Assembly (NCBI RefSeq): GCF_964355755.1
Contig: NC_092679.1
Coordinates: 24,304,432-24,368,431 of the forward strand
DNA from: Antedon mediterranea
Taxonomy: Eukaryota; Echinodermata; Crinoidea; Comatulida; Antedonidae
DNA: 64,000 nt
Direction: 5' to 3'
The notes under the pieces: generated by a model
Told to the model about the DNA's origin: nothing
Databases searched by the model: none
Seen by the model: only the letters and a program-made list of their open reading frames with translations
Made by a program: the position numbers and the translations under genes
In this document: positions 362 through 35,300 of the stretch, piece by piece
How positions within the stretch are numbered: position 1 is the first letter of the stretch
Layout of the letters: every line of letters starts with the position of its first letter

Positions 362-3032
362 GTTACAGATGAAAAGGTTGACCCTAGTATGACATTGCTG
401 AGTTACCTTCGCTTAAAACGTATCCTTTGTTCTATGAATAGAAAATACCAGAGAATGTACACTAAATACATTTCTAAAGACGGAAGCAAAACTCGTTCAA
501 TGATGCGTAAAAATTACAAAACATGTTAAGGTTAAATGGCAACTACTATTTTTAGTTCCTATTATATAATTCTCTAAGCTATTTTACCGATTTTCTATAC
601 TTCTACTCTCTAATTCTTGCTTTGTTTATCGAGGCTGTAAAACCAATTGCTATATTGTAAAAAATGTTAAAACTGAAAAAATTACTGATTCATAAAACAA
701 CACCGATTCTATTGCAAATATAGGCTATAATTTCTTTATACGTCTTAACAATATTTGCACCTATTGGTAACATATGTTGAATTTTCTTTCCAGTTAAGTT
801 TATCATCAGTTATTGTACCTAAAATATTTAGGTTTTACATCAGCTCACCGTGGTTCTTATCATCTTTCCTATAATCAATAATCATCTCTTGTTTTCTTGA
901 TATTCAACTTTAAGTGTATCAGTACACCAATAAGAGAAACGATTTACATTATCAAAGTTTAACTGAGTATTTATCGTTTAAAAGCTCAACAAGTATCATC
1001 TGCATATTTTACAGTAAAACACTTTGTTAAAACTTGGTCATCTATATTAGGTTTACACTCGTAAAACAGAAAATTGTTGCATATCCATTAAAAAAGCATT
1101 GATCCATAAACTAATAAAGACTGGTTTACATCTAAACTATTCATTTTCTTCATTAAAATTCCGACATTATGGATTAAAATTAAAACTTTGTCACGATAGG
1201 TCTAACACTTGCAGAGAGTAACAAACAGACAAACTGGCATAGAATTTACACATTTAACATTGTAATGTGTAATGGAAAAGCTTTATAACCAAATGTACAT
1301 ATTGTTTGATTATACTACTGTCAGAAATCATGTGTGCGTGTCAGTATGTGTAATAACATTTTAATTTCACATTTATGACGTACGTGTATCCTGGAAATTG
1401 TACATACTATCTGATACCAAAAATGTCCTTCAGCGTTTTAGTAGCTTGAAACTTGCACCATATCGTTATATAATGCAATTTGCCACCGTGGATTTTAAAC
1501 ATTATTTACTAGATTCATTTAAAATAAATGTAGATAAATTTAATTGGTACAGAAAAACTTGTACTGATTTAAGTATAAATATATTGCACATTATTACTAT
1601 CAAGCTTAACAAGACAATGTGTAGTAAGATTGACAGGTTCCAAACTTGGTTGTGGTGAAGGAGGTTGTGGTGCCTGCACTGTTATGATATCAAGCTATGA
1701 TAGGCTGACCAAAAAAATAACGTAAGCAAATTTTCAGCCGATTCTCGGTACCGTACATTTTCTATACATTATAAAACGACATCAAACGTAGGCCTACATT
1801 AAAATGATTATACTTTACCCTACAGTTGCAAACGCATAGACCTACGTAGTAACGTTGATATACATCAAAATGCAATAGCCTATGGATGGATACGTCTCCG
1901 TTTAAACAAATGATATGCTTTTAGATTGAATTGAATGATATTTCTTTTATTAGTAACATATCGGCAAATGCTTGCTTGACTCCTATATGTCAAGTACATA
2001 TGATGGCAGTAACGACAGTTGAAGGTATTGGAAGCATAAAAGAAGGACTACACCCAGTCCAGGTATAAAGTGCAATATAATTATCTTCTCAGATTAAGGG
2101 CAAACATTAATTTAAGAGAATAATTAGTAAGATTAATCATCAATCAAAATATATGTCAAAATGTAAGTGCTGTACAGACGTGAAATAGAGGAAGTTCGAT
2201 TCCCGCTCGAGAATTACTTTCGAGAAACGGGAAAAAATATCTTACCAATTAAATACCACTAATTCCCATTCGTATAAATGACAACATTCTACACATTGGC
2301 TTCCACACGCCATAATAATTTAGATAGAATAATGAGATCAGGTTAAAACAAATTATACCATCTATATATTGGCCTATGTATCAAGTGCTGATCAGCATCA
2401 TTCGATAAATAATTGCCATTTTATTTAGGAACGTATTGCAAAAGCTCATGGATCTCAATGTGGTTTCTGTACTCCGGGTATTGTGATGTCAATGTACACT
2501 CTCCTGAGAAACAACCATCAACCTACAATGACAGACATTGAGGATACCTTCCAGGGAAATCTGTGCAGATGTACTGGATATCGACCGATCTTAGAAGGTT
2601 ATAGAACATTCACAAAGGTATTAACATGCCGTATCTTTGTCAATTTTGTCAATAAGTATGAAAATCAACATCAATAACAATCACAAACACACACCCCCGC
2701 CCTTGCACGCACTCATTCGCAATTAAAGAACACAACTTTTTAAAAAATTAAGGATTATGTAAGTGATGGGTCTGCGGACAAAAACTGTTGCCAAATGAAA
2801 GGCAACTTGAAATGCTGTACTGATGATGGTTTGAACGACGGAACACCACAATCTTCTAAAAGTAACTGTTGTCAAATGCGGAATACTGAAAAGAGGCAAG
2901 AAGGTGTACAATCGTGTACTGATGAAAACCAATGCTGTATGATTTCAAATGGGAAGCGCCAGGTACGTTGTTGTTGTTGTTTGCTTATTTCTTCACACAC
3001 ACAACTCTTTAATATGTGGTTCTGAACGCTTA

Positions 3033-3077
<45 letters not shown>

Positions 3078-6000
3078 TGACAGATATCTACAATACTTTT
3101 TCAACCGTCAGAATTTACGGCATACGATCCCACGAAGGAAATCATTTTTCCTCCAGAACTAATTTTGGTAACGTATTATCAATCTGTCTTCTACAAAATT
3201 TTCGTATAAGGGTGGCAAGTATATACACTCACGAGTGGCGGATATACACATATTTGGCGCCAGATAACGACTTTTAAATTCACTAATGGCCCGAATAGGC
3301 TTCTGTGGTCATTATTTATTTATTTATAATACTCTTTTCTATTTAGGCCCTACGTATTTTGAATAATATTAATTTGTCGTACTTGTTTTAAATTGTTAAC
3401 ATGTTGGTGTCTATAAAGATGCTAGAAAAAGAAGACCCACAACTTGTGAAATTCGAAGGCAATGGTTTGACATGGATTAGACCGGTAACTATAGATCAAC
3501 TCTCTGCCGTCAGAAGTCAATTTCCGAATTCAAAACTAGTTTCAGGAAACACCGAAGTTGGTACGTAGCACAGTACATTCCGGTCGAAAAATACAGCATT
3601 AAAATGTCAGTATTGTAGACATAGAATGAATGTATGAAGTGAATTTCTTTCTTTGTAGGTGTTGATATAAAGCTAAAGAAAATGCATTATCCAATGCTAG
3701 TTTCTGTAGCAAACGTTGCTGAGTTAAATACCATTGGTTTATGTGAGACAGGTGTAAATATTGGAGCATCGGTAACACTTTCCCGAATTGAGGATTTTCT
3801 AAAAGATGCGATGGGACAGATTCCAGGTAAGATAACATACACTGAATAAACTATGTCAGTAGTGGTACATTCAACGTCGCGACGGTAAGAATAAGGAATA
3901 GTATTATGTTGTTTGGTTGCCTCGAGGAATACAACAGTTTGTTAAGTCTATGATTTTACACATACCAATTGAGAAACATGCAAGTAATGTCATCACTTAC
4001 TGATCCGTCGTAAGGCGTGTATGTATCGTTTAATCCTGTAACTACAAAAATAACAGTTTTTAAAATGTGCACCACATGATGGACGGTTTCTGAACACAAT
4101 GTCAACGAACTTCAGAAAAACTATACAATCAACAAAGTAACATATTCTTTACTGGTATAGTTTCTTTTTACCTCACACAATACCGATTTTGCTCTAAAAA
4201 CTTTGTTAAATTTTTCATCAGATTACCAATGTAAAGGTTTTGCCGCAGTTGTCGATATGCTTCATTGGTTTTCTGGTCAGCAAATAAGAAACGTTGCGGT
4301 GAGATTTTAAATTATTAATTGCTAAATTCCTAAAATGAACATTAGGCTACCCCGTTGTAATATCACATCAAGATAATATGCAGACTGGGCTAAAACGTGA
4401 ATAAACTATTATACTTGCTCACTGTGAAGAACAACGTATTGGGTTTCTAAAAAGAAGGAATTGTTTGCATGTTGCATTATTGTGAAATACATTATCAAAA
4501 CCAATCATAAATAATTAATAATTTGATTCACTTAATCAGGGTATTGGTGGAAATATAATTACTGGAAGTCCAATATCTGACCTAAACCCAATACTGATGG
4601 CTGCTGGATGCACCCTTGCTTTTGCTGATACAAAAGGTAAGATTCGCTAGTGACACAATAGTTAACCTCAACCTTTTTTCGTGTGATTCCATGAAAAATA
4701 CGTAATAATGAAAAGTCAATAATCATATTTTATAATTATACAATAATATTACATTATGTAATAATGATATGTAATAATGAAAGAGGCGTGCGTTGACCAA
4801 ATTCTCAATTACTATTAATTTTTACGCAGGCGTGCATCGTTCATTACAAATTGCTGAACATTTCTTTACTGGTTACAGACAGAATGCAATGAAACCAAAT
4901 GAAACGCTTGTTTCAATACATATTCCATATACAAAAAAGGTAAACAAAAATACACAATTATATAATTTTGAATTATTATTTATACTCGACTCTGAATATT
5001 AATTCACAATTTGGTGGTAACTTAAAAAAAAAAATTCTTTTATCTTTTCAAAAACAGACGGAACATATTAAAGCGTTCAAGCAAGCACATCGTCGTGATG
5101 ACGACATAGCAATAGTGAATGCTGCATTTAGAGTTGATCTACATGATGGAGTTGTTCATGACTCTTCAATGGCTTTTGGAGGAATGGCGCCCACGACAAA
5201 GATGGCAAAGCAAACAATGAACAAGATAGTTGGAAGGTATAACTCAATGGTAACTCTACAATAACAATGAGCAATGCTCTGCTTCTCTTTTTTTAATTAC
5301 CGTATTTATTCTTTTTTTATTTGATCTGAAAATTGTTTAGTGGATCATTTCGTAAGCTGACCTTGTTACCACTTGAACCTTCCGATTGCGCTGGACAGTT
5401 ATCGCGTCGTTAGAATGTTAAACAAACTTTCGGGTATTATTGTAGCTAAGATAAACTTTAATGAGATACGAAAAATAAATAAGCTTTTGGATAATTTTTT
5501 GTTGTGAAGTGTAGGGCATACAATTGTTTTAAGATTAAGATTACTCAAATGTTAAAAAGAAAATAATGATTAAAGTGGCAATAATAAACAGATATCCATT
5601 GACGTTTTCAAGATCCTAATATAAACATGTTACAAAACTGCAAACTATTGCATATCTTTGTTACATATTCTGTTTATTTTCAGAATATGGGATCAGTCGT
5701 TATTCGATGATGTCATTGCTTCACTTGCCAATGAGATGTCTCTAGAACCTGGCGCTCCAGGTGGTATGACCGAATACAGACAGTCACTTGTCCTAAGCTT
5801 CTTCTTCAAGTTTTACCTCAGATTAAATCAAGAAATACCTAATAAAGTACAGTACAATTGTAGTCCTTTCAATTTGTCATTAAAAGCAATAAAAATAACT
5901 AAACATCACCGGAGGCAACTTCTATTTTCGAAATAGGAATTAATAACTTACACCAAATTTGTTATTTCAACAGACAACGATGTTTAAAAAAACAAAACGT

Positions 6001-9000
6001 ATGAAATCAAATAATTTTTTCCATTGAAAATATATAAAAAAAAACCAATATTTTATTTGCTAAATATTTTTAAAAATGCTAAAAACATATAGTAATTTCT
6101 ATGATCTTTATTCCTGATTTCCTACATTTTAATGTCAATATACATTTTGGAGTGGAGTTGTGGCCTGGTGGTTATGATGCTTGGCTGCCAATCCAAGGGT
6201 CCTGGGTTCAAGTCCTGTCATATGTCAGGATTTTTTCTAATGACAATTTACAACTCCACTCCCAAAGACTTGTAATATAGACTTTGTTTATGTAGAGCAT
6301 TGTGTGTATATGTTTGTCTCGTGAACGGATTGCCACCTTTAAGAAGGATAGTGATTGAATTTGCTTATGGTTATCCTTGGCAATTTGCCTAAATATATAA
6401 AAAAAATGAAATTATTAATGGTTTGTTTTAATTTACAGAACATTCCAAAAGTATCACCATCTGAGACGTCAGCAACGTTTCCCTTCAAAAGAGATGAAGT
6501 AAAAAGCACTCAGATGTTTCAGGTATGTTTTAAAGGTTTAAACACAGACAGTTTTACCATTACAATCGAAACATCTAGACATTCTAAACCAACTGTTAAA
6601 GGAACACATGGTGTACTGCAAACATAACTTTACTACAATTGATTTGTTTTATTACAAAAAAATGTACATAAACTTCTTTCCTTATACTAAATAATTGCAG
6701 GAGGTTGCTAACGATCAGCCACCGATTGATCCAGTAGGTAGACCGTTAGTCCACTTATCAGCTTATCAGCAGGCAACAGGCGAGGCTATCTACGTTGATG
6801 ATATGATACCGTTTCAAAGTAAGAATTAAACTATATAAGTTTCTTTCATTCATCCATAAGAAAATATAGGAAAAAGCATAAAAACATCAATAGAGTAAAA
6901 TATGGACAAAAGGGAAGGAGAGAAAAGGCAACTACATACATGTGGCCGTAATAGGACGCATTGCAAGGACGCGTGAAATGTGAATGAGTTTATAATTTCT
7001 TGATTTGTTTTATGTTAGATGAACTTTACATGGCTGTTGTGTTTAGTCAGAAGGCACATGCACAAATCAAGTAAGAAACATTAATTACACTTGGCAAGCA
7101 TAGGAGAAACTCCAAAATACTCAAATAATACAATTAGAATACTTATTGATTAGTAAATAAACAATAAGGACGAGTCAATCTGTGAGATCGACCAAGAATT
7201 GAACCTAGACTTGTCATTTTGATATATTCTACCATTAGACCACTAACTGATTAATTCAAGAAGTATCAATTAGTTTATAAACGCTAAATGATGAGAAAAT
7301 GTTGGGAACTATGGTCCATCTGTACACACGGCTGGAATGTAAAGATATTTAAAAAAACTTTCCATTGAATAACAGAGATATACAATTCAAAAGCTCTGTC
7401 TACACTATCAAACTAATTTGACAAAAATGTGTGATGTGCCAAAATACAGTAGTGATATGACATCATCGTGCCCATAATGGGCACATCACTTTTTTTGTCA
7501 CATACAATTTAATAGTGTAGTTTTAAGGCATGTTTATGATTATTTTCTTATCTTAAAACCACAATCTCCAGTAAACATTTCTTGTAATTTATTCTATAGA
7601 TGTGTTGACGCTACAGCGGCATTGAGCATGCGTGGTGTGCATGCTTTCATTGACCACAGAGACGTCCCTGGAAGTAACTTGATAGGTGATATCATACAAG
7701 ATGAAGAACTTTTTGCAACTGATAAGGTTGTTTAACTTACTGAGTATTTAAAATCGTTACATAAAAACATAAAGTTAAAGATATATTGTCCATCAAAATC
7801 ATAAATATTAAAGATTTATAAATCAGACTTTAAATAGACCATTTTGAAGTTTTACATAAGTTAATCACTTTCATCAGAAAAAAAATGATTTCACTTATAA
7901 AAATGTATCGATTATAACATGGTGATAGGTAACTTGTATTGGTCAGTACATTGGGGCAATTGTAGCAGATGATAAGGAAATTGCACAGAGAGCCGCTAGG
8001 ATGGTACAAGTGGAATACCAGGATTTGGAGCCTATAATATCTATCGAAGTATGTACAGTAGTTTTAAATTATAGATAACAAGCGTATATAGAGTAATAAT
8101 TATATGCTTGATAAACACATACAGTAGAACAACACTGTAGAATAAAACAATATTTCAAACATTGGACACTGCTTCATTCAAGGCATTTCAAATTTCAAAC
8201 ATTGGAAACTGCTTCATTCAAGGCATTGACACTGCTTCATTCAAGGCATTTCACATTTCAAACATTGGACACTGCTTCATTCAAGGCATTTCACATTTCA
8301 AACATTGGACACTGCTTCATTCAAGGCATTTCACATTTCAAACACGTCTCTTATTTTATTAAATATACTCGCTTTTATTAACTGATGATTAACTTTCAGG
8401 ATGCAATAGAAAAAGAAAGCTATTTCGAACCAGTAAGAATGGAAACAGGTAACATGACAAACGGATTTGAAAGTTCAGATAAGATAATTGAGGGTGAAAT
8501 GAGAATAGGTGAACAGGAACATTTCTATTTGGAGACACAATCATGTATTGCAGTACCGAAGCAAGAAGAAGATTTCATAGAAGTATTTTCTGCTACTCAG
8601 GATCTCCGTTTAGCCCAGGTACGGGTTGTTGTATGTGTTTAAATTAGCCTATACATTTTCCGACAATGGAAAGCAAATTATAGCTACTGTACAACTACAT
8701 CAGTACAGCACACATATTCGTATTAAGAATGGTTATTAAAAATAACTTGATCTTATACATTATAGATTACAATTGCTAATGCATTGGGAGTAAAATACCA
8801 CAAAGTTAATGTTCGTACAAAGCGCCTTGGAGGTGCGTTTGGCGGAAAAGAAACTCAAAGTTGCAACTTATCTGCTGCTCTCGCTATTGCAGCCAAAAAG
8901 TAAGTGTTTTGTTATTTATTTTTAACACTTGGGAGTAGATAGATATCTACAGACTCTTGAAGTTAAATTTAAGCGCAAGGACGTAAACGAAACGCAAATG

Positions 9001-12000
9001 TGTTGACCAATGACAAGCGAGAGATGTAACTCACTTACGTTGCGTTACGTGCTTATCTAGTGGGAACCAAGCATAAGTGAACTAAAAAAAAAAATAAGTG
9101 AACTAAGACCAGATACATAATATGATCATAATTGCTTAATTTTACAAGTAAATTTACAGTAAAATGTATTGTTTATCAAAACTTGGGTGCCAGCAGTTTA
9201 AAATAAGGAAATATGCCTAAATGAACGAATAACATATCTACATTATAAATGGCTATGTGCACCACCTCCTTATTTAGAGTTGGTCGACCAGTGAGGTGTA
9301 TGCTTGACCGGGACGAGGATATGACGAGTACGGGAACCAGACATGCTTTTCTTGGACGTTATAAAGTTGGCTTCTCCAATGATGGTAAAATACAAGCACT
9401 GAAGATTTACCTATACTGTAATTCCGGAAATTCTATGGATTTGTCCCCCGTGGTAATCTTCATAAACTTTTCTAACTTTAGGCTACACTGTTTATGCATC
9501 TTGTCAGATATAGACCTACATAATTATCTAGTTGCTAGAACTTCTTAATCATATTCAATGACAAAATCAAAAGGTCAATTTCTACCCCTAGACATATATA
9601 TCATAGATACATCAAGTGCAATTAGTGTCTAGTAACTGATAGTCAGATATTTCTTTTTTTAAAGTCTACTAATATGCAATGGCAGTCTTTTAACTTCAAA
9701 TGTTGTTGATTTTCTTTATCATTATGATTGATGTTTGTACCAAGAAGTAAATTAAAACCCTACTCATAATATTGCTTTGGTTTTTTTTTCTCAAGAGTAG
9801 AACCTATCTTTAACGAATGGTAATTTGTTAAAGCATTGTTATGGTATTTATCCTATAATTTATTGCTAATGTTACAAAACAATCCCTTTAATTTTATTCC
9901 TAAGGTCATGGATCTTGCTTTGTGGCAATTACAAAATGCTTATTACATCCCTAATATGGATGCATATGGATACTGCTGTAAGACAAACATACCCTCAAAC
10001 ACAGCCTTTAGAGCACTTGGGCGTCCATCAGCTCTTTTGATTATGGAAAACTTGATGAATGAAATATCATATTCGATTGGTGTATCGCAGAACATGGTGC
10101 GTTGACATTTTGAAATACTTTGCATTAGTGGCGTGTGAAGAGGGAGTGTGGGGTGCAAAGATAACATATTAACAATTAATAAATAATTTTAATTCATGTG
10201 CATATCAATGCATACTGAATATATGGTTGCATTGCCTGGTTAAATGGCGGAAAACCCACTAAAGTGGATTGATAAACTTCTTTACATGTCAAATATCCTT
10301 ACTACTGTAGCAAGAGGTTAAACATTCTGCCCTTGCAGTCTTATAAAGGGAAATGTTTGTTTTATGGGCCAAATTTGGTAGATCTTACCCATCTAAATTT
10401 CTAAGCCTCTAAATTTCTAAAGTATATAATAAATAAGCAACCTTTCAGGTACGGGAGTTAAACTTTCTAAAAGAAGAGCAGATGACATGCTACAATCAAA
10501 CAGTTGACGACGTGCACTTGGTAAAGAGGTGTTGGGATGAATGCTTGTTAAAAAGTGATTATACAGAAAGGCAATCAAAGGTTGCCAACTTCAACAGGTA
10601 GGACTGTATTTTTGAAGTCACTGATACCAGATTCTGTAGAATACTAGAACAGCCAATCGATCAAGTCATAAACATTCTAAACAAAGTTCTTTGAAAGTTG
10701 TATTAAGTAAACTTATTTTTTTATGCATTTAGATCAAATAGATGGAAAAAGAGAGGGTTGTCTATCATTCCACTTCTATATGGAGTTGGGTTTCCTGCAA
10801 TTCAAATGGATAAGGTTTGCCAATTTAATTCAATTGTACACTGTATGCATTCTCCCACATTTTACATTTTAATTGGAATGTGTAAGAAAGTATTATACAA
10901 CATGGTGTTTATGTTCAAATATTGTAGTAGTGACTACATTACGAATTTTTAATTTCTATGTCGGAGCTAATTCAATAGCTGTCAACCATTATTAATCATA
11001 ATTAATAATGCTTTTTGTTTACAGGCAGGAGCATTTGTCATTATCTATCAAGACGGCAGTGTTTTACTGTCTCACGGTGGAGTTGAGATGGGACAGGGAT
11101 TGTATACCAAAATGATTCAGGTCGCAAGTCGTACCTTGAAAATTCCATCTGATCAGATTTACACAGAGGAAACGTCAACAAACAAAGTTCCGAATACTTC
11201 TCCAACTGCTGGAAGTGTCAGTTCAGACATAAACGGAATGGCTGTTAAGGTGATACGTTTATTAATAAAATCTAAAGGTTCCTTGTGAACAATCTAAGGA
11301 GCCATGTTTTACGTTTACAAAACATGGTTTTGTATGAATATTTTGTGTTTTTTTGCACCCCTACCCTCATATATTTTGATAATTAAGTTCTGTTATTAAA
11401 CATTAATTACGAATTGTGCTCTTTTTTTTAAGATCGCATGCGAAAAACTATACCAACGACTTGAGCCATACAGAAGACAGGAACCGGACAAAACATGGAG
11501 TGACTGGGTGAATAAATAAGAAATATTTTTTACAAAAAACGCTGCTCGCTTATTGAAAAATATTTTTTATTTCAAATGTTTTTTAATGTGTCATTTTATT
11601 GTCACATAATAGTTATTTTACCTGAAAAAATGTAATTTAAAGCAACAAATACCTAAATTGTCTGTCAGACAATGGTTTTTGGGTTTCTTTTCTTTTTTTA
11701 TATGTGAATAAATATTATTTTTTTGTTACAGAAGTGAATACTCAATTTCTGTCACTTTAGTTAATTTTATTGCTAAGGTCATATCTGGGGGTCACTTCAT
11801 CACCCTAGATATTTCAATTGTGAAGTATCCTATTACAAACACAAACTGGACTGTTTCGATAATAATTCAATGAATATCTGACAGTGAATATACCAGAAAT
11901 GCTTAGGGATTTGTAATTTTAGCATGACATGTCCTAATAGACTCTTTCCCAGACGTTTTTTGGGTCTACTGTAGCAGCTGGAATCAATAAATCATAGTGG

Positions 12001-13724
12001 AGTTTCCATTTTAACAAAACTGTCTGTCCTTAGAACTATAACTGCTGCTTGCTTTAGCTTCTGATTGAGTAGTCCTAATGGGACGTAGCGGGCTAGAGCA
12101 GCAGCGTGAAAAATGCTTATTTTAATCCAACTTAAATAAGGGGCTTAACGTTTGTTTTTGTATATCTCAGAGCAAACATAATTTCTATGTATATCTTATA
12201 TGAAAATAACAAGTAATGGAAATAATTTTCCACTGATGAATGAATGATACACTCTTTAATTCCAAAATGGTTATAATAATTTCATTGCAATAGGTTGCAG
12301 CGGCTTACATGGATCGAGTTAGCTTGTTTGCCACGGGATTTTACAAGTAAGAGCATATATATATATATATATATATATAATGTTATACAATTATTGGATG
12401 TTCTAACAAACATCATTGTATTCTTGCAATTTGTTTGGTTAATACTACCTCACGGAAAAGTGATATCTACTAATGATGATGATAAACGGACCTAATGCAC
12501 GCTCTCTGTACCAGTAATAACTATATCACTTTTATTTAATTTTTATTTAAAACAAAAAAAAAATTTTATTTTAAAAGAACACCGTCAAAAGGATTTGATT
12601 ATAGGACGAGAACCGGTGAACCATTTTACTACTTTTCAAGCGGTGCGGCCGTATCCGAAGTTGAGATTGATTGTCTGACTGGTGATCACGTGGTGCTGCG
12701 TACTGATATTGTCATGGATGTTGGAGACAGTATCAATCCCGCTATTGATATCGGACAGGTGACCTTTTATACTTTTAGTCTAGAACTTATCTTAGTTGCT
12801 TAACTTACTGCTCTGCATATTTGTAACATTCAGTTTTTTTAAAGACAGTCACTAAGGAATAAAAAAGGTCATAACGTCCAAAACATCACATTTCTATTCA
12901 GATTGAAGGCGGGTTCATACAAGGTTACGGCTTATTCACACTGGAAGAGTATCGCTGGAGTCCTAGTGGTGAACTACTGACAAAAGGACCAGGGTTTTAC
13001 AAGATACCAAGTTTTACTGATATTCCTGTTGAATTTAATGTTAGTTTGCTTGATGGAGTACCTCATACGAAAGTAGTTTGTTCATCAAAGGTAACCATAG
13101 ATTCCAAAAATAAACATTACTCAGATCAGAAACCACAGTGGTTCAATTTCAATTCTTGGATGTATTAATTTTATCCAAACACAGGTAGGCTTACTTTATA
13201 AGAAAAGTTAGTTGTTTTCCATGCAACGGAACAGATTTTATCATACAAGTTTTGCTATGCTCACTTCGGAACACTTTTAATAATAAAATAAATAGAGCAT
13301 TGGTTAGACATGAATTCACAACAAGTAATTGTTTTTTACAGGCGATTGGTGAACCTCCTCTTTTGTTGGCAGGGTCTGTTTTCCTGGCAATTAAAGAAGC
13401 TATTCTGGCTTCAAGAAAAGATTGTGGTATAGAGGGTAGTTTTCGATTGGACAGTCCAGCAACAGCCGAACGAATAAGGATGGCATGCAGTAATACATTC
13501 ACTGAAAAGGCATGTATACGCTTAAAATACACAAACATTTAAACATGTTATGTGTATAACCACATAATAATAGTATGTGATGTCTCAGAGTTTCTAAAAA
13601 ATTGATGTGACGAAGTGTCAGTTTAGTGTTAATAAAATGTTTAATTAACTTATATTTTTTTATTCTTTTTCAGTTTCCACCAGCAGTTCCTGGACAATTT
13701 ACACCGTTCTTCATTCGTTCATAA
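362..13724 (+). CDS. XDH: XDH-A: xanthine dehydrogenase family protein (diverged paralogue), 5' partial
   Basis: Molybdo-flavoenzyme of purine catabolism (hypoxanthine to xanthine to urate) or a derived oxidase. Exons seen: 362-419, 1625-1721, 1954-2062, 2429-2617, 2753-2962, 3084-3167, 3419-3560, 3659-3826, 4222-4298, 4540-4636, 4830-4939, 5058-5236, 5684-5846, 6439-6522, 6701-6818, 7019-7070, 7600-7726, 7929-8048, 8400-8618, 8766-8899, 9278-9452, 9905-10096, 10449-10597, 10733-10814, 11025-11249, 11433-11507, 12294-12346, 12578-12758, 12902-13090, 13342-13509, 13674-13724. These give 1358 codons; exon 1 (~17 aa in the paralogue) lies upstream. Domains in order: two 2Fe-2S modules ([30 protein letters not shown]), a Cys-rich linker, FAD domain ([15 protein letters not shown]), Mo domain ([27 protein letters not shown]). 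Substrate-pocket residues are altered: ERAL is DLAL, FRGFG is FRALG, GFT is GFP. The last intron needs a GC donor at 13510. Family assignment is secure; xanthine activity is doubtful. Confidence 0.93.
420..1624 (+). other. U12-type intron of XDH-A
   Basis: The intron starts GTATCCTTT, a match to the minor-spliceosome 5' site (RTATCCTT), and has CTTAAC at 1605-1610, 14 nt before the AG, matching the U12 branch-site core. Joining 362-419 to 1625-1721 restores the expected Leu-Arg-Leu-Thr-Gly before the first iron-sulfur motif. The paralogous intron at 23711-24182 has the same signals. Confidence 0.8.
2753..2962 (+). other. Expanded Cys-rich linker exon of XDH-A
   Basis: This 210-nt exon links the iron-sulfur and FAD domains. 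It encodes 70 residues with repeated Cys-Cys pairs (NCCQM...KCC, NCCQM...QCC), whereas the XDH-B equivalent (25240-25338) encodes 33 residues with one NCCQM...CC unit. An internal duplication of the Cys-pair unit is the simplest explanation. Confidence 0.75.
3033..3077. repeat. (ATT)n microsatellite
   Basis: About 15 uninterrupted ATT units in XDH-A, just upstream of the acceptor of exon 3084-3167. Confidence 0.95.
6150..6360 (+). mobile_element. tRNA-derived SINE in XDH-A intron
   Basis: It has an A-box-like TGGCCTGGTGGTTATGATG and a B-box GGGTTCAAGTCC at the normal Pol III spacing, with an anticodon-like stem-loop (CTTGG, loop CTGCCAA, CCAAG). A 13-bp inverted repeat, GGAGTGGAGTTGT / ACAACTCCACTCC, encloses the tRNA-like part. 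It lies inside intron 5847-6438, which XDH-B lacks. The downstream boundary is approximate. Confidence 0.65.
7391..7524. mobile_element. MITE-like element, family M1 copy 1
   Basis: Nearly palindromic ~130-bp element bounded by CTCTGTCTACACTATCAAAC on the left and the related complement (AATAGTGTAG) on the right. Its subterminal inverted blocks are GTGATGTGCC and GGGCACATCAC. Related copies lie near 47590, 53805, 56795, 57675 and 59229. Confidence 0.7.
8152..8345. repeat. 40-bp tandem repeat, ~5 copies
   Basis: The unit contains ATTGGACACTGCTTCATTCA and repeats every 40 bp, with one shortened copy. It sits in the XDH-A intron before exon 8400-8618. Confidence 0.9.
8970..9075 (-). mobile_element. 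Small MITE-like repeat, family M2
   Basis: Read on the minus strand it begins GCTTGGTTCCCACTAG and contains CGTAACGCAACG, resembling the copy at 35670-35763. Intronic in XDH-A; boundaries approximate. Confidence 0.4.
12354..12380. repeat. (AT)n microsatellite
   Basis: About a dozen AT dinucleotides immediately after the donor of XDH-A exon 12294-12346. Confidence 0.9.
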
Positions 13725-23352: not shown

Positions 23353-26300
23353 ATGTCTCTCAAGGAAAACGCTGTCTTGATATTCTTCTGTAATGGACAA
23401 AAAGTAAGTTGTTAATTATTGAGTATTATTTAGACCTAGTTAATTATTAATTAATACAACTTTAAGATATATTAGGATTAATATATACCTAATAGTAATG
23501 GAAAAACTAACAATTATAATATAGCACAACAAAATATTACTACTGATGCTAGTATTCATAAAATGCAAACATGTCTTTGATGATTGTCCTACTATGACGT
23601 AAATGTATGTTTGTACTAAACACATCTAAACATGTATTTGTTTCATTTCTAGGTTACCGATGATAAAGTTGACCCAAATATGACGTTACTTAGTTACCTA
23701 CGTCTAACATGTATCCTTAGTTTTTAATTCAATTCTGGTTTTATTAAAAATAAGTAATAAAATTACATTCAAATATTACAAATAATGCGAATACGAAAAT
23801 ATACAACAACAGACTACTACAAGCGGAAATTGTGTATAAAACCAGTAGACGAGACCTACGTTTAAGCGTAGTAAACATGTTACTGAATAATATTATGTTA
23901 ATTTATTTAGATTGAATTCATTTTCTCTGATTAGACAAAAATAAATGTGTTCTTTTTAAGTACTTACAGATACATTTCTATTAAATGTTCGTTTGATAAT
24001 GTTATAAGCTGACACAGGTTTGCGTTTAAAATAGATTTCAAATTGATGACACTGGTGTAAATCGAAACTTGACATTGTATAATCGTCAAGAAATATACTT
24101 ATTAAATTTAAAGATAAATTATAATTGTATTATTAAATTTATGACTACTGTTTATAACAATACTTTACAAAACAATGCGTAGTAAGACTGACAGGCTCCA
24201 AACTTGGTTGTGGTGAGGGAGGTTGTGGTGCCTGCACTGTTATGATATCAAGCTATGATAGGCTGACTAAGAAAATAACGTAAGCTCATTTTCCAATACA
24301 TTTTTAAATCATCGCAAATAAATGAGACTATAGTATCAACCATGCACAATAACGTTATTTTAGAAATGTTTAAAAATTGATATAAATTGTTCATAATAGC
24401 TACAGTATGGCTCATTTTAAAACAATATATATTAAACTAAACTGTAGGCCTATTTAGATTGAATCCATCCAAGGGGGCCGTCAATGGGTTATGCCCCGCC
24501 TCCTATCGGGCCAATCCTTGCGCTACCACTGAATGTGATTTTCTTTTGTTAGCCACATATCGGCAAATGCTTGCCTGACTCCTATATGTCAAGTACACAT
24601 GATGGCAGTAACGACAGTTGAAGGTATTGGACGCATAAAAGATGGACTACACCCAGTTCAGGTATATAAGTTCTTAAACTGTAGTTTTTGTTATTTTGTC
24701 GATACTTTGATCATCTATCTTTTTCCATTATTTACACATTTTTTTGTTATTTCTCAACATTAATTTTTCATATAAAAGTATTTCTTGAAGTATTATATTA
24801 TATATTTGAACGATAAATACATTCTATTCGATTTAGGAACGTATTGCAAAAGCTCATGGATCTCAATGTGGTTTCTGTACTCCGGGTATTGTAATGTCAA
24901 TGTACACTCTCTTGAGAAACAACCATCAACCAACAATGACAGACATTGAGGATACCTTCCAGGGAAATCTGTGCAGATGTACTGGATATCGACCGATCTT
25001 GGAAGGCTATAGGACATTTTCAAAGGCATTTACTTCCTATAATTTATTTCATTTTTAAACCTATTTTCTTATTTCAGGAAAATGGATACACTGGTTCAAT
25101 GTTCAGAAAATAATTGCCTCTTTTGTTTCTTTTTAACTGTTTCATTTCAAATACATTATTTTGAGAAGATTAAAGATGCTAGTTTTGTAATAAATGTATG
25201 TTTTATTCTTGTTATTTGACTGAATTTCTCTTATTTAAGGAAAATCTAAATGTTGGTGAAAGAAACGCACAAGTTAACTGTTGCCAAATGAAGGATGAAC
25301 AGTGCTGTAGACCTACAAATTCAAATGGAAAGCGTCAGGTACTGTATAGGTTAAACATAATATGTATAATCTTCCATAAAATGTTTATATAAATTACATT
25401 TTTCAATCTCAAACAGAAATATTGCGCTGAATAAAATACTTATTTTAATAGAAATAATAAGGGGAAGCTAAATTATTTCCTCTTATACTTAAAACAAATC
25501 TCAAAATATTAAGAGAAGAGGTAACATCAGAGAACTATGAATGACAAAAAAAAACTAATTTATGAAAGTTGGAATGGATAGACTATGTTACCAGAGATGG
25601 TGGTTGTCGTCCCTGGACAAATTAAGTTACAAATTTGCCAATAAGGTGACAAATTAAGATAGATTAAAAAAGAAACGAATGTTGCCAACTTCGGTTGCAA
25701 TTCATCTAACAGTGGACAAACAGACATCAGTGATACAGGATGATTTAAAATAAGAGATTGCTAATATCATTCTTTTACAGATATCCACAACACTTTTTCA
25801 ACCTTCAGAATTCAAGGCATATGATCACACAAAGGAAATCATTTTTCCTCCAGAACTAATTTTGGTAACGTTAATCTCTAAAATGTTTAATTATAGAAAC
25901 TTAGATAATAATTTACTATATCATCTGTATGCTTTAGAAAATAGTCCCTAAACAATGAACACATACATCTTTTTCCCAATTGACCCGGTGCTTCAATTTT
26001 AAATGCTAAAGGCTACTCCACGAACAACTTTGCAATGATTACACTTATTATAATCGGTCTTCAATTAACGTTATTCAAAGTTTATTTTCATTTCAATTAT
26101 TTTCAAAGTTTTTATTACAATGTTAAAATTGTATCATCTGTTTTACAAAGATGCTTGAAAAAGAAGAACCAAAACTTGTAAAGTTTGAAAGAAATGGTTT
26201 GACATGGATTAGGCCGGTAACTTTAGATCAACTCTTTGACGTCAGAAGCCAATTTCCAAATTCAAAACTGGTTTCAGGAAACACCGAAGTTGGTATGTAT

Positions 26301-29300
26301 AATCTGTCGACACCTGCATATGCCTACCAAAGTTGGCTGGCCAATGCAATCAAATGAAAAATTGTACCGTTATTTTTTTTCTTTATCTAGGCGTTGATAT
26401 AAAACTAAAGAAAATGCGATATCCTATACTAGTCTCTGTAGCACACGTGACCGATTTAAACAAAATGTTTGCATGTGAGACAGGTGTAAGAATTGGAGCA
26501 TCAGTAACATTGTCACGAATTGAGGATTTTTTCAAAGATGAAATGGGAAAACTTCTAGGTAAGAGAAAACAAATATAGTTAATATAGCGAACGGCTTATG
26601 TAAATATACTACCTGTAGAATATTGACTGGCAAATTATTGTAAGTGGTACTTTCACAGAAGATTTAAGTTGTGTTGTACTTTTGTCAATATATGTCTTAA
26701 ATGCATTCATTACTCCAGTAAGCTCACATAAACTGTTTAAAGATCCAGAAAACTAAAAACTTCACAATCTAAAGAACTACTGTTACTGAAACTGATTTAT
26801 ACATTCTATCTTTCCATTAGATTACCAATGTAAAAGTTTTGCCTCCATTGTCGATATGCTTCACTGGTTTGCAGGTCAGCAAATAAGAAACGTTGCGGTA
26901 AGACTGCAGGTTCTGCACTATTAAGTAAAACAGACAACAATATTACTATAACTAATAGCCTTGAAGTAGGTCTACATTGTGTACACAGAGTAGGCCTACA
27001 CTACCTTAACACCAATTATAACCTATAAATGTTATCATACAAATTGAAAATATGGATGAAAGGAAAAGACAACTAAAAAATACACTTTTATCACAATTTT
27101 GCTTCAGAATTATGTGCGTGTTGGATATTCTGACAGGCGTTTTCTTTTAAAAAAATACCAGAAGTAAACTAAAATTCCAAGTAATAATTTGATTCACTTA
27201 TTCAGGGTATTGGTGGAAATATAATTACTGGAAGTCCAATATCTGACCTAAACCCAATACTGATGGCTGCTGGATGTACTCTTGAATTTGCTGATACAAA
27301 AGGTATTCGCTAGTTACATCATTACAGCCAAAAAGCAACGCTCTGTTTCATTTCTGTATTGCAGCTGGTTATTTCTTCAAATTGGCTCATTGAGTGTACT
27401 TGGTTAAAACATGGATAGATTAGAGAGAAGGATTTGTATTAATCTGAGATCGATCGATCTGGACCCCCAACAACATTTTTCTTAGCTTCGCATGCGCAGT
27501 TTTGACTTAGCAACCCAACTAGCCAATCAGTAGAAACTTTACAATAATACAATCTCCTATATTATGGAGATTGAACAAAAAGTCTTTCTCAGTCTTTCCA
27601 TTATTATTAATTTTTACGCAGGTGTGCATCGTTCATTACGAATTGCAGACAATTTCTTTACTGGTTACAGACAGAATGCAATGAAACCAAATGAAACGCT
27701 TGTTTCAATACATATTCCATATACTAAAAAGGTAAACCAAAATGTTGCAAATACATTAACTAGACTTTACAAGACAACTTTGGTCATAAGATTTTTCTAA
27801 GCCATCAAACCAATCGATTTTTCTAAAATGTTGATGTATTTCTACTTATTTCTAATTTAGTTTTGTTTGTTGTTTTTGTTTGCGCAGACTGAACACTTCA
27901 AAGCGTTCAAGCAAGCACATCGTCGTGATGACGACATAGCAATAGTGAATGCTGCATTCAGAGTTGATCTACATGAAGGAGTTGTTCATGACTCTTCAAT
28001 GGCTTTTGGAGGAATGGCGCCCACTACAAAGATGGCAAAGCAAACAATGGACATGATGATTGGAAGGTATAACCAGCATCGAAGTGATGTAACTAACTAG
28101 CCTATAGCTCATAACGATTTTTACCTTGTGTAAAAAAACAATAGATCCATTATATAACAATTTTAGGGTTTTTGTTTAAAATTTAAATAAGGGTTCGCGA
28201 GAGATATAATTTACGATGAAAATTATCTTGAATATAATTTCGGTTTAAAGAATTATCATAACATATGCCCAATACCCGAAAGCCTAGGTTTTCTCCGCTC
28301 ACAAAAAAAGGTTCTATTACATTAGTATTGAAATAGTTTTGAAACATTTAATGAATCATATAGCTAATGAAAACGGGCAATCTATCTATCTATCTATCTA
28401 TCTATCTATTTTAACGTATCCTGTTTATTTTAAGGATGTGGGATCAGTCGTTATTTGATGATGTTATAGCTTCACTTGCCAAGGAGATGACTCTTGCACC
28501 TGGTGCTCCAGGTGGTATGACTGAATACAGACAGTCACTTGTCCTAAGTTTCTTTTTTAAGTTTTACCTCGGTGTAAATCAAGAAATGAATAGTCTGAAT
28601 GCACCACTATCTTACACGTCAGCAACGCTTCCTTTCAAAAGAGATGAAGCCAAAAGCACTCAGATGTTTCAGGTAAGCAATGTCTTACTGTTGCTGGATT
28701 CTTCCGAATCACAATCACGTCTCAGTTTCAGTTGGTGAACAATATATCCCAATTAAATAGTAATTTGGTTTAACCCGTATTTTCCCGTGTAACGAAAGTC
28801 CAAGACATACTCATCATGCGACCGACGACAGTACACAACATCTGTTGACGATCAGACATTATGATCTATTTCAGGAGGTTTCTAACAACCAGTCACCAAT
28901 TGATCCAGTAGGGAGACCATTAGTTCACCTATCAGCTTATCAGCAGGCAACAGGCGAGGCTATCTACGTTGATGACATTATTGCGCTTAAAAGTAAGATT
29001 ATTTGTATAACGAACGAAGTAATAATGTTTTCCTACATCGAATAGAATTATAGTTCATAGTCACATACCGGGACGTCAACACCGGCGTTTCGTATTGTAC
29101 CCGCCCCTGATTTTTGCTACTAGGCGATATGAAGTTGTATACTGTTTTGGACTTGAATCCAAAATGGCGGTTATGTTAATGATTTATAAATAAAACCATA
29201 AATGAAAGAAATTCTAATTGTGTGTGATATAATAATTCATATAAATATTGATTGATTTTTTATTTCTGATAGATGAACTTTATATGGCCGTTGTATTCAG

Positions 29301-32300
29301 TCAGAAGGCCCATGCAAAAATAAAGTAAGTTATTTGTTACGATGTGGTTTAAATATTACAGTTATCAGCAGAGTATATTAAGCATTATGTAATACGACAA
29401 AATATTCTTGTATTTGTATTACAAATTATTTACAATATTAAATTTAAAAAATGTATAATCTGGGATGGTGTACTGTACTTTATATAAAATCATAAACAAC
29501 CCACATATAATAACTAGAAGTTAATCAATTTATAAATGTGAAGATCTATTAGTAGGCCTACGATAGAGCGTGACTAGTTTTATATGCATGTGCAACAGAG
29601 ATACTTGAATTGAATTGTAATATGAAATACATGTTTCCAACTCAATAATTCAAAGATAGTTTTTACTAATATTATTATGTATCTATTGATATTTTTAATG
29701 TTTTATATATTGTATTTGTTTTCAAGCATCAAGGAAAACAAATTTCATGTTCGCCTTGTTGTGTTCATGACAATAAATATTTATCTTATCTTATCTTATG
29801 ATTTGGAAATTTGTACTCGTTCGAAGCACAGTCTTCAGTAACAGTATACATCTTGTTATTTTAATAATGTACAATAGATGCGTTGACGCTACATCGGCAT
29901 TGAGCATGCGTGGTGTGCATGTTTTTATTGATCACAAAGACGTCCCTGGAAGTAACTTGATAGGTGATGTCGTACAAGATGAAGAACTTTTTGCAACTGA
30001 TAAAGTAAGATTCTAAATGTTCACATTCAATGACAACATACAGTTTAATAGCCTTTATTTACTTACTAATTATTAGTTTCTCTCTGACAATTTATGTTAT
30101 GTTTTATTGTTCTGGAAAGTAGATACATTTTTAAATATAAAAAAGATATGAGTTTTACCTAGTTTAAAACTATCATTGTTGATAAAAATAAATTATAAAA
30201 TACCTAAAAAAAAAATCATGTTACCAGTCTTATATCTTTACAATAAGGTAACTTGTGTTGGTCAGTACATTGGGGCAATTGTAGCAGATGATAAGGAAAT
30301 TGCACAGAGAGCCGCTAGGATGGTCCGTGTAGAGTACCAGGATTTGGAGCCTATAATATCTATCGAAGTATGTACAGTAGTATCAGAAATTATTCATGTC
30401 AATTTTCAAACATAATCCGATTGAGTTTATAGTTGTAATTCGAGAGAGGTTGGAAATAAGAATAACCTACAGAAGGAACGAATAAGGAAACATTTTCTTG
30501 AATTCTCAATATAAGATAGTGAAATACATAAACATAAAACAGGACACCTCCAAAATGAACTAGTTCACTGTCGAGTGGAGACCCTTAATCAGTATAAATT
30601 AGGCTACTGTAGGCCTACATTGTTTTATTTAACGTGGAACGTTGCACATTGCAAGCACATTACAAAACTATATTAATTTTCAGGATGCTATAGCAAAAGA
30701 AAGTTATTTTGAACCAATACAAAGAATAGAAAAAGGTAACGTTTCAAATGGGTTTGAAAGTTCAGACCAAATAATTGAGGGTGAAATGCGAGTGGGCGAA
30801 CAGGAGCATTTCTACTTGGAGACACAATCATGTATCGCAATACCGAAGCAAGAAGAAGATTTCATGGAAGTATTTTCGGCCACTCAGGATCTGCAGTTAG
30901 CCCAGGTAAAATACACTTATATAAACTAGTTTTATATTAACAGTAATGTATGTAGTATTTGAGTCAGTTATGAATAGATCTAAGGTATATATATATATAT
31001 ATATATAAGTATAAACGAAATTACGTATTTACGAAAACAATCAGATACATTGATTATATTTACAGATTACAATTGCTAATGTATTGGGAGTGAAATATCA
31101 CAAAGTTAATATTCGGACTAAGCGACTTGGAGGTGCGTTTGGCGGAAAAGAAACTCGAAGTTGCAACTTATCTGCTGCTCTTGCTGTTGCAGCCAAAAGG
31201 TAACTTGATTTATTAATCTGAATCTCTAAAATAACAAAATAAATTTATTACGAATTTAGGCACACCTTAAAACTGTTTAAATAAACTGTATCAAATGTTA
31301 TGCACACCTCTTTATTTAGAGTTGGGCGACCAGTGAGGTGTATGCTTGACCGGGACGAGGATATGACGAGTACGGGAACCAGACATGCTTTTCTTGGACG
31401 TTATAAAGTTGGCTTCTCCAATGATGGTAAAATACAAGCACTGAAGATTTGCTTATATGCTAATTCAGGAAATTCTACGGATATGTCAGTTATGGTAATA
31501 TTCCTAATTTCCTTGATCATTAGCATGTTCATTAGACACGTTACAATTTTAAAAAATACTGTTAACTTAAAATTATGTTGGTCAACAATACAATAGCATA
31601 TCATACCCTGTACTTGTAATGAACACAGATTACAAATATTTCTTATATATATATTCCGTATCTGAATTACGTCATTCATTAGAATGTATTAGTAATTAAA
31701 TCATGCGTAATGATTTGTAACTAGCTCTATCACATCAAACATATTAAAATGTATCAATCCCTAAAGTTGAAAAGATCTATTCAATAAAAGATTCAACAAA
31801 TAGTAGGCCTATCGCTAGGTGTGGGGGTCAAATGTAAAATACAATGTTTTTCATTTGTATTCACAAGGTCATGGAAAGAGCTTTGGATCATTTACAAAAT
31901 GCATATCACCTTCCTAATGCGGACGCTTGTGGATACTGCTGTAAGACAAACATACCGTCCAACACAGCCTTCAGAGGATTTGGACGTCCACAAGCATTTC
32001 TGATTATAGAAAACGTGATGACTGAAATATCATTGTCGTGTGGTGTAAGACAGAAAACGGTGGGCCATCGTTTGAAAATTTCTTTTTTATATTCTTCAAA
32101 AAAAATAAATACACGCGTAAAATCTACACTTGAATTGGAAAAAAATATTTTTAAATAGTTTTAAAAAAAAAGAACCATTTGAGAAAAAAAAAACTGTCAT
32201 GGATGTTTAAAAAAGAGTGTTACAAAAAGTAAAAGTAGATAAATGTTTTCTTGGCCCGACACAATCATGTATTACAATACCGATGCTAGAAGAATTTGGT

Positions 32301-35300
32301 ACTGCCACTCAGGAATTCAAGTTGACGCTTATGCATGAACCCCAATGGCAACTAAGATAGACTTTGGTAAATGGATAAAAGTAAAATCTAAAATAATCAA
32401 ATTGGTTTACAGTTGATCTTATCAAAAAGGAATGTAGTTTAAAACATATTATATAACATACTAATTTAATAATGTATGTTTATATAATCAAACTGTATTT
32501 TTCAGGTACGAGAGTTAAACTTTCTCCAACAAGGCCAATCGACATATTACAATCAAAAGGTTGATGACGTACATTTGGTAAAGAGGTGTTGGGATGAATG
32601 CTTAGAGAAAAGTGATTACGAAGTCAGGCAATCAAAAGTAGCTGAATTCAACAGGTCAGCTTTGTATTAGCAAATCGGTATCAATTTGTTGGTATTGTTA
32701 ATATTAATTGGAATAAGGACATGTATAAAGTTTAAACCACTATCAATTAATACCAAAATACACCCTTAGTAAAATGAATTCGTCCTTTAAAGTTACAGGC
32801 GCAAAAAGATGGAACAGTTTACCAATTAATATTAAATCGGCACCAACAATTACGTCCTTTAAGGCTAGATACAAATCTCATTTCTTTTCATAAACACTGT
32901 ATTATATTTAATTAAGTTTCTCTTTTGTATATTTTGATTAAGACAGGACCACAATGTAAAACAGATACACTGTTATCTGATTGTTTTATCCTGTATAAAT
33001 ATATTATCTATTATTATTATTATTATTATTAAACAACTAGGCCTACTGATATTCCAGTAGACCTAAAGAATGGGTAGTAGCCACACACATGTACTTGGTA
33101 ATTATCAACTAATAAGAGTTTGCAGTATAATATGCTTTCTAGGTTGGTTGCTAGGATGGTACTACAACAAACTATATTGTTATTTTAGCAATTATTTTCA
33201 ATTCTATATACGTATACCTCTCCCCCTCCCCAGCATCAATCCACTGATTTATGTTACTACAAGTCGTTATCCTCTAACCTAGTTTTTTAACTCTTGTCCA
33301 GCGTCTTCGTCCCGCGTCTTCGTCCCTTCTGTCCTCGTTCTGCCACGTGTTTTTGTCCTGTGTCTTGTTGTGCTTGTGTATGTAGCTTACATTTTTTATT
33401 ATCTTTTTATTATTTTTTCTTATTCTTGTTATTTATTTATTTATTCATATTTTATTTTCATTTATTTATTTATTTATTGACTACTTTTGAAACATTTATT
33501 ATATATACTTTTTGAATTATTTTTTTTCTGGTAGAACTAGCCTTAAAGCCCTCTTGGCTTATTTATGTTTCTCCAGCATAAGTGCATTCTAATTTTTTTT
33601 AAATAACACACTGTAATATTATTTCACAATGATGTATCTCAATAAATTGAATTGAATTGAATTGAACAAGTATAATTCAAATTTACTATTTCGCACCCTC
33701 TATCTATTACGAATATAGATTACTTATTACATTGGAATAAATTAATCTGGTTCCTAAATTAATATTTTTTAGAAATTTTTCTTTGGCGTTAAACCAGGTA
33801 AAAATGTTGGTGAAAGGAAGGAACATTGTATAAAGTTCTTAAAACAATTAGATCACTACTTTCACCGTTATATTGAATGATACTGTCGTTTGTGACGAAA
33901 CATTGGAAGCTCAGTACAACCTTTATAACCTTTGTCCATAAAAGGCAAACGTTTAGTTACTATAAAAACAGTATATATCATTTGTGCATGCGTCTCATTT
34001 ATTGATAGAATAGGTTGCATCTATAATAGAACATTTTATTAATTTATACTTTTATATTCTAAGAAAAGCTGAACCAATTTTAAACCCTAGCCTGTTGCAA
34101 ATATATTTAAATGCTTGTTAATGTATAGATTGTAAGTATTATTATATTACTGAATCTTAAAATGTTAATACATTATAATTTTAATAATGTTCTTAATATT
34201 TTTATTATTAATTTAGATCAAATAGATGGAGAAAAAGAGGTTTATCTATAATTCCACTTTTATATGGAGTTGGTTTTACTGCAATGCATATGAATAATGT
34301 TAAGCTATCATTAATAAACAATAATTACACTGCACTTAGGAACCACTTATATATATATTCCTGTACCACTGTTATTTTTATATGAGCAAGAAATAAAAAC
34401 AAACAAACAAACAAACTTAAAAAATTTAACGACAACCAAGCATTTCTAAGTGACATTTAGATCTTGCTTAGTCAAATAGAATTATTGTATTAGTAAACGT
34501 TTGAATTTCTAAGCCGAGATGGTTAGATGGTTAACAGTTTTACATCCCAAATATTAATATTCTTGTTTATAGGCAGGAGCATTTGTGATTATCTATCAAG
34601 ATGGCAGTGTTCTACTGTCTCACGGTGAAGTTGAGATGGGACAGGGGTTGTATACCAAAATGCTTCAAGTCGCAAGTCGCACGTTAAAAATTCCATCTGA
34701 TCAGATTTTCACATATGAAACGTCAACAAACACAGTTCCGAATGCTTCTCCAACTGCTGGAAGCATTAGCTCAGATCTAAACGGGATGGCTGTTAAGGTG
34801 ATTTGATTCTCTATGTATGGTAAAATGTGACTTTTCTCCTTCTAAACTTCAATAAAACTGTACTTGGTATCTGATCTTTTTTCTGTATATTCGAATGAAC
34901 CGTTACATTTAGTTTGGTAAAAAATAATCCAAATTAATAGTTTCACGTTAGTGCTCGTCACACTGTACATTAGAGTTCCATTGTATTCTTATTGGTATTA
35001 GTAGGCCTACTTACCAAGCAATGTCTTGGCATATGCTACCAAAGTAATATATGTAATACTAGAAGTGATGTTTGCATTTCAGGGTGCCATGTTTGCACTA
35101 ACGTGGTTATTTGCACAAATGTGACTTTTTTTGCAAATTTCACAACTCAACAGCCCGTCAATGAGAAATCACTTTGTTGTTTATTGTGGTTGCTTACTAT
35201 TTCCAAAAGAAAATCTAAGTGTTTACAATACAAAATATTTACTTTTTTTAAAGATCGCATGCGAAAAACTATACAACCGACTTGAACCATACAGAAAAAA

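Follow-up and report, generated by a model that had tools for sequence, protein, structure and literature searches.

A tandem xanthine dehydrogenase duplicate with a putatively rebuilt molybdenum pocket in the crinoid Antedon mediterranea

In this study, we describe five copies of xanthine dehydrogenase (XDH) in the genome of Antedon mediterranea, one of which, XDH-A, is probably a lineage-specific tandem XDH duplicate with a rebuilt molybdenum pocket that would act poorly on xanthine and oxidise another substrate. Alignment to the XDHs of the PDB (residue numbering is that of rat/bovine XDH) places Leu880, Leu914 and Pro1010 in XDH-A where XDHs carry Arg, Phe and Thr, and the codon positions agree, as a preliminary description of this DNA had it. 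The same description held that XDH-A is not simply a decayed copy, and by its open frame and a branch dN/dS of 0.22-0.30, with 1 rejected and a near-1 value thus excluded, XDH-A is an intact copy under purifying selection.

The XDH array and its gene models

The window, that is, the whole stretch of 64,000 nucleotides analysed here, corresponds to C10:24304432-24368431 of a 354-Mb, 18-contig genome. Genome searches with the PF20256 profile and with the Moco region of XDH-A as query returned an identical set of five XDH loci, four of which (c1, c2, XDH-A and XDH-B) lie head-to-tail on one contig, C10. No separate aldehyde oxidase (AOX) gene was found among the genome matches of both searches, in which weak matches may be missed, and uricase (PF01014) had no match in the genome in an exon-wise search that may have missed one. 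Gene models were obtained by a purpose-written spliced protein-to-DNA alignment, with manual correction of exons 5-6 in XDH-A; the c1 model begins at exon 5, exon 4 and a portion of exon 3 having been located upstream and exons 1-2 left out. The relevant features are listed below, in window positions unless a contig is given.

C10 ~24.267-24.284 Mb: c1, outside the window
C10:24287706-24303062: c2, the neighbour of XDH-A
C11:2785082-2803909: c11, the fifth copy, on another contig
C10:24304198-24304248: XDH-A exon 1, 17 codons, upstream of the window
362..13721, forward strand: XDH-A gene, exons 2-32, from the spliced alignment, with the stop codon TAA at 13722-13724
2753..2962, forward strand: XDH-A exon 6, Cys-rich, a long, length-variable linker from the Fe-S to the FAD domains
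8766..8899, forward strand: XDH-A exon 21, GGAFGGKE with Glu802 kept (8850-8852)
9278..9452, forward strand: XDH-A exon 22, Leu873 kept (9441-9443) and Val876 in place of Ser (9450-9452)
9905..10096, forward strand: XDH-A exon 23, Asp879, Leu880 (9914-9916), Trp883, Gln884 (9926-9928), Ala913 (10013-10015), Leu914 (10016-10018) and Ser918 (10028-10030)
10733..10814, forward strand: XDH-A exon 25, Phe1009 kept (10791-10793), Pro1010 (10794-10796), Gln1013 (10803-10805) and Asp1015 (10809-10811)
13342..13509, forward strand: XDH-A exon 31, GEPPL with the catalytic Glu1261 kept (13351-13353), followed by a GC donor at 13510-13511
23353..37933, forward strand: XDH-B gene, Arg880, Phe914 and Thr1010 kept
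34627..34629, forward strand: XDH-B codon 1035, GAA (Glu), in the GGxEMGQG motif

The frame of XDH-A is open over 32 modelled exons, and the intervals 9905-10096 and 10733-10814 proposed earlier for two of them match the models obtained here. The earlier figure of ~1358 intact codons holds for the part within the window, and the full gene has 1375 codons once the 17 codons of exon 1 upstream are included. Thirty of the 31 donors of XDH-A are GT, and that of the last intron is GC. Splicing at an alternative GT, 4 bases past this GC donor, would put the end of the protein out of frame and alter its last 16 residues, so that use of the GC donor is required for a working C-terminus; on this model the GC donor is the one weak point in the exclusion of a pseudogene.

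Two features of the XDH-B model concern its introns. Intron 5 has a GC donor (25026-25027), and the segment 28435-28672, a single exon in XDH-B, corresponds to two exons in the XDH-A, c1, c2 and c11 models, which points to a probable intron loss in XDH-B. Elsewhere in the window, positions 50807-53096 hold a long tandem array of a short repeated peptide, open in three frames (662-752 aa), flanked by exons that, judged by eye from their motifs, may belong to a putative DHTKD1/OGDH-type E1 gene.

Pocket residues in XDH-A and its sister copies

The alignment of XDH-A covered the PDB sequences of rat and human XDH, AOXs and 80 prokaryotic relatives; these relatives are the best 80 among 571 matches confirmed for an XDH query and hence chosen for XDH likeness. 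In this alignment XDH-A has V876, D879, L880, W883, Q884, A913, L914, R916, S918, P1010, Q1013 and D1015; beyond the three replacements already described, it has thus also changed at 876, 884, 913, 918, 1013 and 1015. At positions of the published pocket, the changes private to XDH-A are S876V, R880L, H884Q, F914L, T1010P and N1015D, and G913A adjoins F914. R916 and D879 say little about XDH-A, because the former is common to XDH-B and c2 and the latter occurs in 53 of the best 80 of 571 prokaryotic relatives. XDH-A keeps Glu802, Leu873, Phe1009, HGGVEMGQG (the GGxEMGQG motif) and Glu1261, and the alignment bears out the earlier statement that its Fe-S, FAD and Mo-cofactor motifs, Glu802, Phe1009 and Glu1261 remain, the NAD motifs being kept as well.

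Among the best 80 of 571 prokaryotic relatives, all 80 are identical at Glu802, Leu873, Arg880, His884, Gly913, Phe914, Phe1009 and Asn1015, with the count for His884 biased by its place inside one of the two scan patterns. In the same set, 65 relatives have Thr and the other 15 Asn at position 1010, and positions 876 and 1013 are variable. Within region 776-1090, 53 columns are invariant in these 80 prokaryotes (best 80 of 571), rat XDH, human XDH and c1; XDH-A breaks 11 of them, human AOX1 12, mouse AOX3 10, XDH-B 7, and c2 and c11 6 each. The overlap of broken columns with AOX was rejected as evidence particular to XDH-A: it amounts to 7 of 11 columns in XDH-A (P=0.002), but to 5 of 7 in XDH-B (P=0.007).

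The pocket was defined as positions 802, 873, 876, 880, 884, 914, 1009, 1010 and 1014 plus the gating loop 1006-1008, 1011 and 1015, from the XOR-AOX comparison reported by Mahro et al. 2013 (PMC3864932), with pocket positions 771 and 1261 falling outside the aligned region 776-1090. XDH-A-specific changes hit 6 of these 14 positions, compared with 26 of the 301 outside the pocket (p=0.0012), and within the 53 invariant columns 4 of 9 pocket columns and 1 of 44 others (p=0.002); these p values are uncorrected for several tests, and the pocket list was chosen after some residues had already been seen. The corresponding pocket hits are 2/14 in XDH-B (p=0.29), 2/14 in c2 (p=0.20) and, by a slightly different count, 3/14 in c11 (p=0.44). 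XDH-B reaches p=0.041 in one of six test variants (restricted to the first shell, with columns required to be invariant across rat, human, c1 and c11), and its pocket may also be shifting. On these counts, the changes of XDH-A's own concentrate in the substrate pocket, and those of the sister copies do so little or not at all.

Codon 880 is CGT in c1 and c11, AGA (Arg) in XDH-B, TGT (Cys) in c2 and CTT (Leu) in XDH-A. Exon 23 of c2 (C10:24298444-24298635) encodes Cys880 and is c1-like at the other first-shell positions compared. Independent losses of Arg880 in XDH-A and c2 are the simplest history, because they take two steps from CGT and a path through a shared Cys takes three; the arginine was thus apparently lost independently in these copies, a history simplest by one step. 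Exon 25 of c11 (C11:2800172-2800253) encodes Tyr1009-Ser1010 for the XDH Phe-Thr, with Arg880 kept.

XDH-B had been described as carrying all canonical residues, which does not hold: Arg880, Phe914 and Thr1010 are kept, but it has Met873, Met876, Asp883, His1013 and Glu1035, and 8 residues are missing. His1013 is unlike the animal XDHs compared, yet occurs in 27 of the best 80 of 571 prokaryotic relatives, among which position 1035 is Gly in 79 and Ala in 1. The missing residues, which XDH-A has, fall in the exon 29 region (36526-36682), and without a doubtful, automatically placed 21-base exon at 36324-36344 the exons join in frame, 8 residues shorter than in XDH-A. This doubtful exon formed part of the XDH-B coding sequence behind the counts of broken invariant columns, the 6-of-14 pocket count of XDH-A, the pairwise dN/dS and the branch fits. 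Judged from Glu1035 and the missing residues, XDH-B may itself be changed or impaired, and on the residues compared the canonical reference copy is c1, outside the window, and not XDH-B.

Descent, relation to aldehyde oxidases and selection

In a tree of 23 sequences over region 776-1090, with two mammalian XDHs and two AOXs as animal references, the five copies grouped in a single clade (100/98), c1 branching first, followed by c11 and then by XDH-B, c2 and XDH-A; the mammalian AOX pair formed a separate clade, with no order fixed among the three animal groups. XDH-A is thus nested among paralogs of its own genome, apart from the AOXs, and this nesting lends no support to descent of XDH-A alone from an animal AOX. 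The outermost of these paralogs, c1, has canonical XDH residues, which favours a parallel origin, as suggested earlier, over descent from an AOX of the vertebrate type.

Profile matches are mixed. The top NCBIfam model for XDH-A is TIGR02969 (mammalian aldehyde oxidase), at 1400.1 bits and below its cut-off of 1912.3; of the models of bacterial XDH subunits, TIGR02963 scores 522.5 bits, above its cut-off of 467, and TIGR02965 scores 765.7 bits, below its cut-off of 849.5. In PDB alignments XDHs rank above AOXs in both halves of the protein. On the FAD/NAD side, XDH-A has the motifs GSPISDLNP and RRDDDIA, to be compared with ASPISDLNP and QASRREDDIA in human XDH and with SRHPDSDLNP and QAQRQENALA in human AOX1.

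Compared with canonical XDHs (rat, human and c1), XDH-A shares the domain order, the Fe-S centres, the FAD/NAD loops, the Moco motifs, Glu802, Phe1009 and Glu1261, while Arg880, Phe914, Thr1010, His884, Asn1015, Gly913 and Ser876 are replaced. Like XDH-A, the vertebrate AOXs compared (human AOX1 and mouse AOX3) are without Arg880, His884, Thr1010 and Asn1015, and Pro1015 of mouse AOX3 is the same residue as Pro1010 of XDH-A. Val1007 and Gly1008 of XDH-A are also AOX-like, but are common to XDH-B, c2 and c11 too. On the other hand, XDH-A keeps Glu802, lost in both AOXs, and Leu873, and has Leu at 914, where both AOXs keep Phe; position 880 is Leu in XDH-A and Met or Tyr in the AOXs, and position 884 is Gln in XDH-A and Lys in AOX1 and AOX3. 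By these comparisons the resemblance of XDH-A to AOX is partial and confined to the molybdenum pocket. Of the preliminary wording, a subfunctionalised oxidase perhaps evolving in parallel to AOX, the parallel stands, whereas the term oxidase does not, the FAD/NAD region being XDH-like; dehydrogenase is the better name, because XDH-A retains Glu802, Glu1261 and an XDH-type FAD/NAD region. Subfunctionalisation looks the same here as neofunctionalisation.

Pairwise dN and dS are 0.081 and 0.342 between XDH-A and XDH-B (dN/dS 0.24) and 0.075 and 0.359 between XDH-A and c2 (0.21), and dN/dS between XDH-B and c2 is 0.21, the doubtful 21-base exon being included in XDH-B. Exon 6 of XDH-A has the highest dN of all exons in this three-copy comparison. 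A branch codon model written for this analysis was fitted to the three possible topologies, and gave an omega of 0.223, 0.228 or 0.295 for the XDH-A branch, with omega=1 rejected in all three (2dlnL 91.6, 89.1 and 6.3). The topology with the best lnL pairs XDH-A with XDH-B, the others being worse by 2.7 and 7.1, and the protein tree pairs XDH-A with c2 (90/77). Equal omega across XDH-A, XDH-B and c2 was rejected in one of 12 fits (p=0.031; the gene without exons 23-25, one topology). For exon 23, positive selection on XDH-A was not detected, with an omega of 0.46, 0.46 and 2.5, none of which differs from 1 (p 0.12, 0.12 and 0.88), and omega did not differ significantly among XDH-A, XDH-B and c2. 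Over exons 23-25 of XDH-A, two of the topologies reject omega=1 (p ~3e-6), and the third does not (p=0.66). Such fits do not separate relaxation from positive selection in the pocket exon.

Fourfold sites of exons 23-25 differ more between XDH-A and its sisters than those elsewhere in the gene, at 15/32 against 105/465 for XDH-A and c2 (p=0.004) and 13/38 against 88/458 for XDH-A and XDH-B (p=0.036), with 6/39 against 106/455 for XDH-B and c2 (p=0.32), in a test run after the pattern had already been noticed. In genomic BLAST between copies, the aligned pieces are mostly exons at 71-96% identity, and most intron sequence is unaligned; a single identical hit of 2000 bases between XDH-A and c2 is one piece of DNA that both compared stretches contained. 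Exon 5 of c1 (C10:24269286-24269474) shows fourfold differences of 4/27 against XDH-A, 5/25 against XDH-B and 2/27 against c2, compared with 198/311, 200/306 and 201/311, respectively, in the rest of c1 (p 1.2e-6, 1.4e-5 and 3.9e-9). The near-identity of this exon to XDH-A, XDH-B and c2 indicates gene conversion.

Predicted function, alternatives and meaning

The human XOR variants Arg881Met or Glu803Val are reported to have lowered purine activity and to gain AO activity (PMC3509653), the mutations described for Aspergillus HxA at the position of Arg880 include ones that leave the enzyme unable to accept xanthine (PMC5746545), and the E232V/R310M double variant of Rhodobacter XDH reportedly lost purine activity and had higher aldehyde activity (PMC2671166). 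According to the last of these sources (PMC2671166), the reverse changes in mouse AOX1 create no purine activity, and specificity therefore does not depend on the Glu/Arg pair alone. By extension from this mammalian, fungal and bacterial mutagenesis, xanthine would no longer be well oriented or activated in XDH-A once Arg880 was lost, and the pocket, also deprived of one stacking Phe and of the hydrogen bond from Thr, may accept different aldehydes or N-heterocycles, probably ones of greater hydrophobicity. Catalysis would continue as a base-assisted hydroxylation at Mo (Glu1261), with electrons presumably passing through Fe-S to FAD, and the acceptor is probably NAD+, not only O2, because the sequence of the NAD side is XDH-like. 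Xanthine oxidation would be left to the canonical copy c1. Against this reading as a whole we count the kept Glu802, the GC donor, the AOX model as top NCBIfam match, the variability of position 876 and the lack of significant positive selection.

XDHs are dimers, and XDH-A might be without xanthine activity and persist as a partner or regulatory subunit, its pocket drifting with no substrate to hold. Several pocket-lining residues have indeed changed together, an AOX-like design is hard to see in F914L and N1015D, and the fitted omega of exon 23 lies above that of the rest of the gene in both XDH-A and XDH-B, with that of XDH-A not significantly different from 1. However, Glu802, Glu1261 and HGGVEMGQG are kept, and whole-gene constraint together with the kept Fe-S, FAD and NAD motifs suggests turnover, so that we regard such a role as unlikely.

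We hold it to be rather improbable, too, that XDH-A still works on purines or pterins with a changed preference (e.g. for hypoxanthine or pteridines) and Glu802 as the main anchor. The retention of Glu802 and Phe1009 is consistent with this, and tandem copies with different pockets could conceivably divide purine and pterin work, but Arg880 is present in 80 of the best 80 of 571 prokaryotic relatives, its mutation lowers or removes xanthine activity in the human and fungal enzymes as reported (PMC3509653, PMC5746545), and F914L costs the pocket one ring of the stacking pair. That XDH-A is a young pseudogene or an artefact of assembly, as the one GC donor with its adjoining frame-shifting GT would suggest, is very improbable given 1375 open codons, 30 of 31 GT donors, an omega of 0.22-0.30 with 1 rejected, and changes of XDH-A's own that are focused on the pocket and not scattered.

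For the favoured reading of XDH-A as a duplicate oxidising another substrate, the fungal nicotinate hydroxylase HxnS, an XDH-derived enzyme, offers a comparison. As described in PMC5746545, HxnS is likewise a duplicate with a pocket change at Phe1009/Thr1010 and the NAD side kept; it keeps Arg880 and Phe914 and has an Ala inserted between Phe1009 and Thr1010, whereas XDH-A has substitutions at 880, 914 and 1010 and no insertion. His1013, given there as an HxnS feature (PMC5746545), is present in XDH-B and absent from XDH-A. A literature search over titles and abstract openings, with few subscription papers in its scope, turned up none that reports this XDH array.

That aldehyde-oxidase-like enzymes arose from XDH more than once is a known evolutionary theme. 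Taken as predicted here, the pocket remodelling of XDH-A is a variant on this XDH-to-AOX theme, to which HxnS provides a fungal parallel among new enzymes derived from XDH (PMC5746545). More tentatively, the array as a whole might be an ongoing independent radiation of molybdenum hydroxylases, in which Arg880 was lost separately in XDH-A (CGT to CTT) and c2 (CGT to TGT), and XDH-A would now be an NAD-linked, AOX-like dehydrogenase of a new substrate, its pocket exons forming a divergent island amid otherwise similar coding sequence. One genome would then hold apparently graded states, with c1 canonical, the gates of c11 and XDH-B partly changed, c2 with Arg880 lost and little else altered in the first shell, and XDH-A rebuilt. 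With an XDH-type NAD side in XDH-A, the substrate pocket and the electron acceptor would become separable for the study of the change from XDH to AOX.
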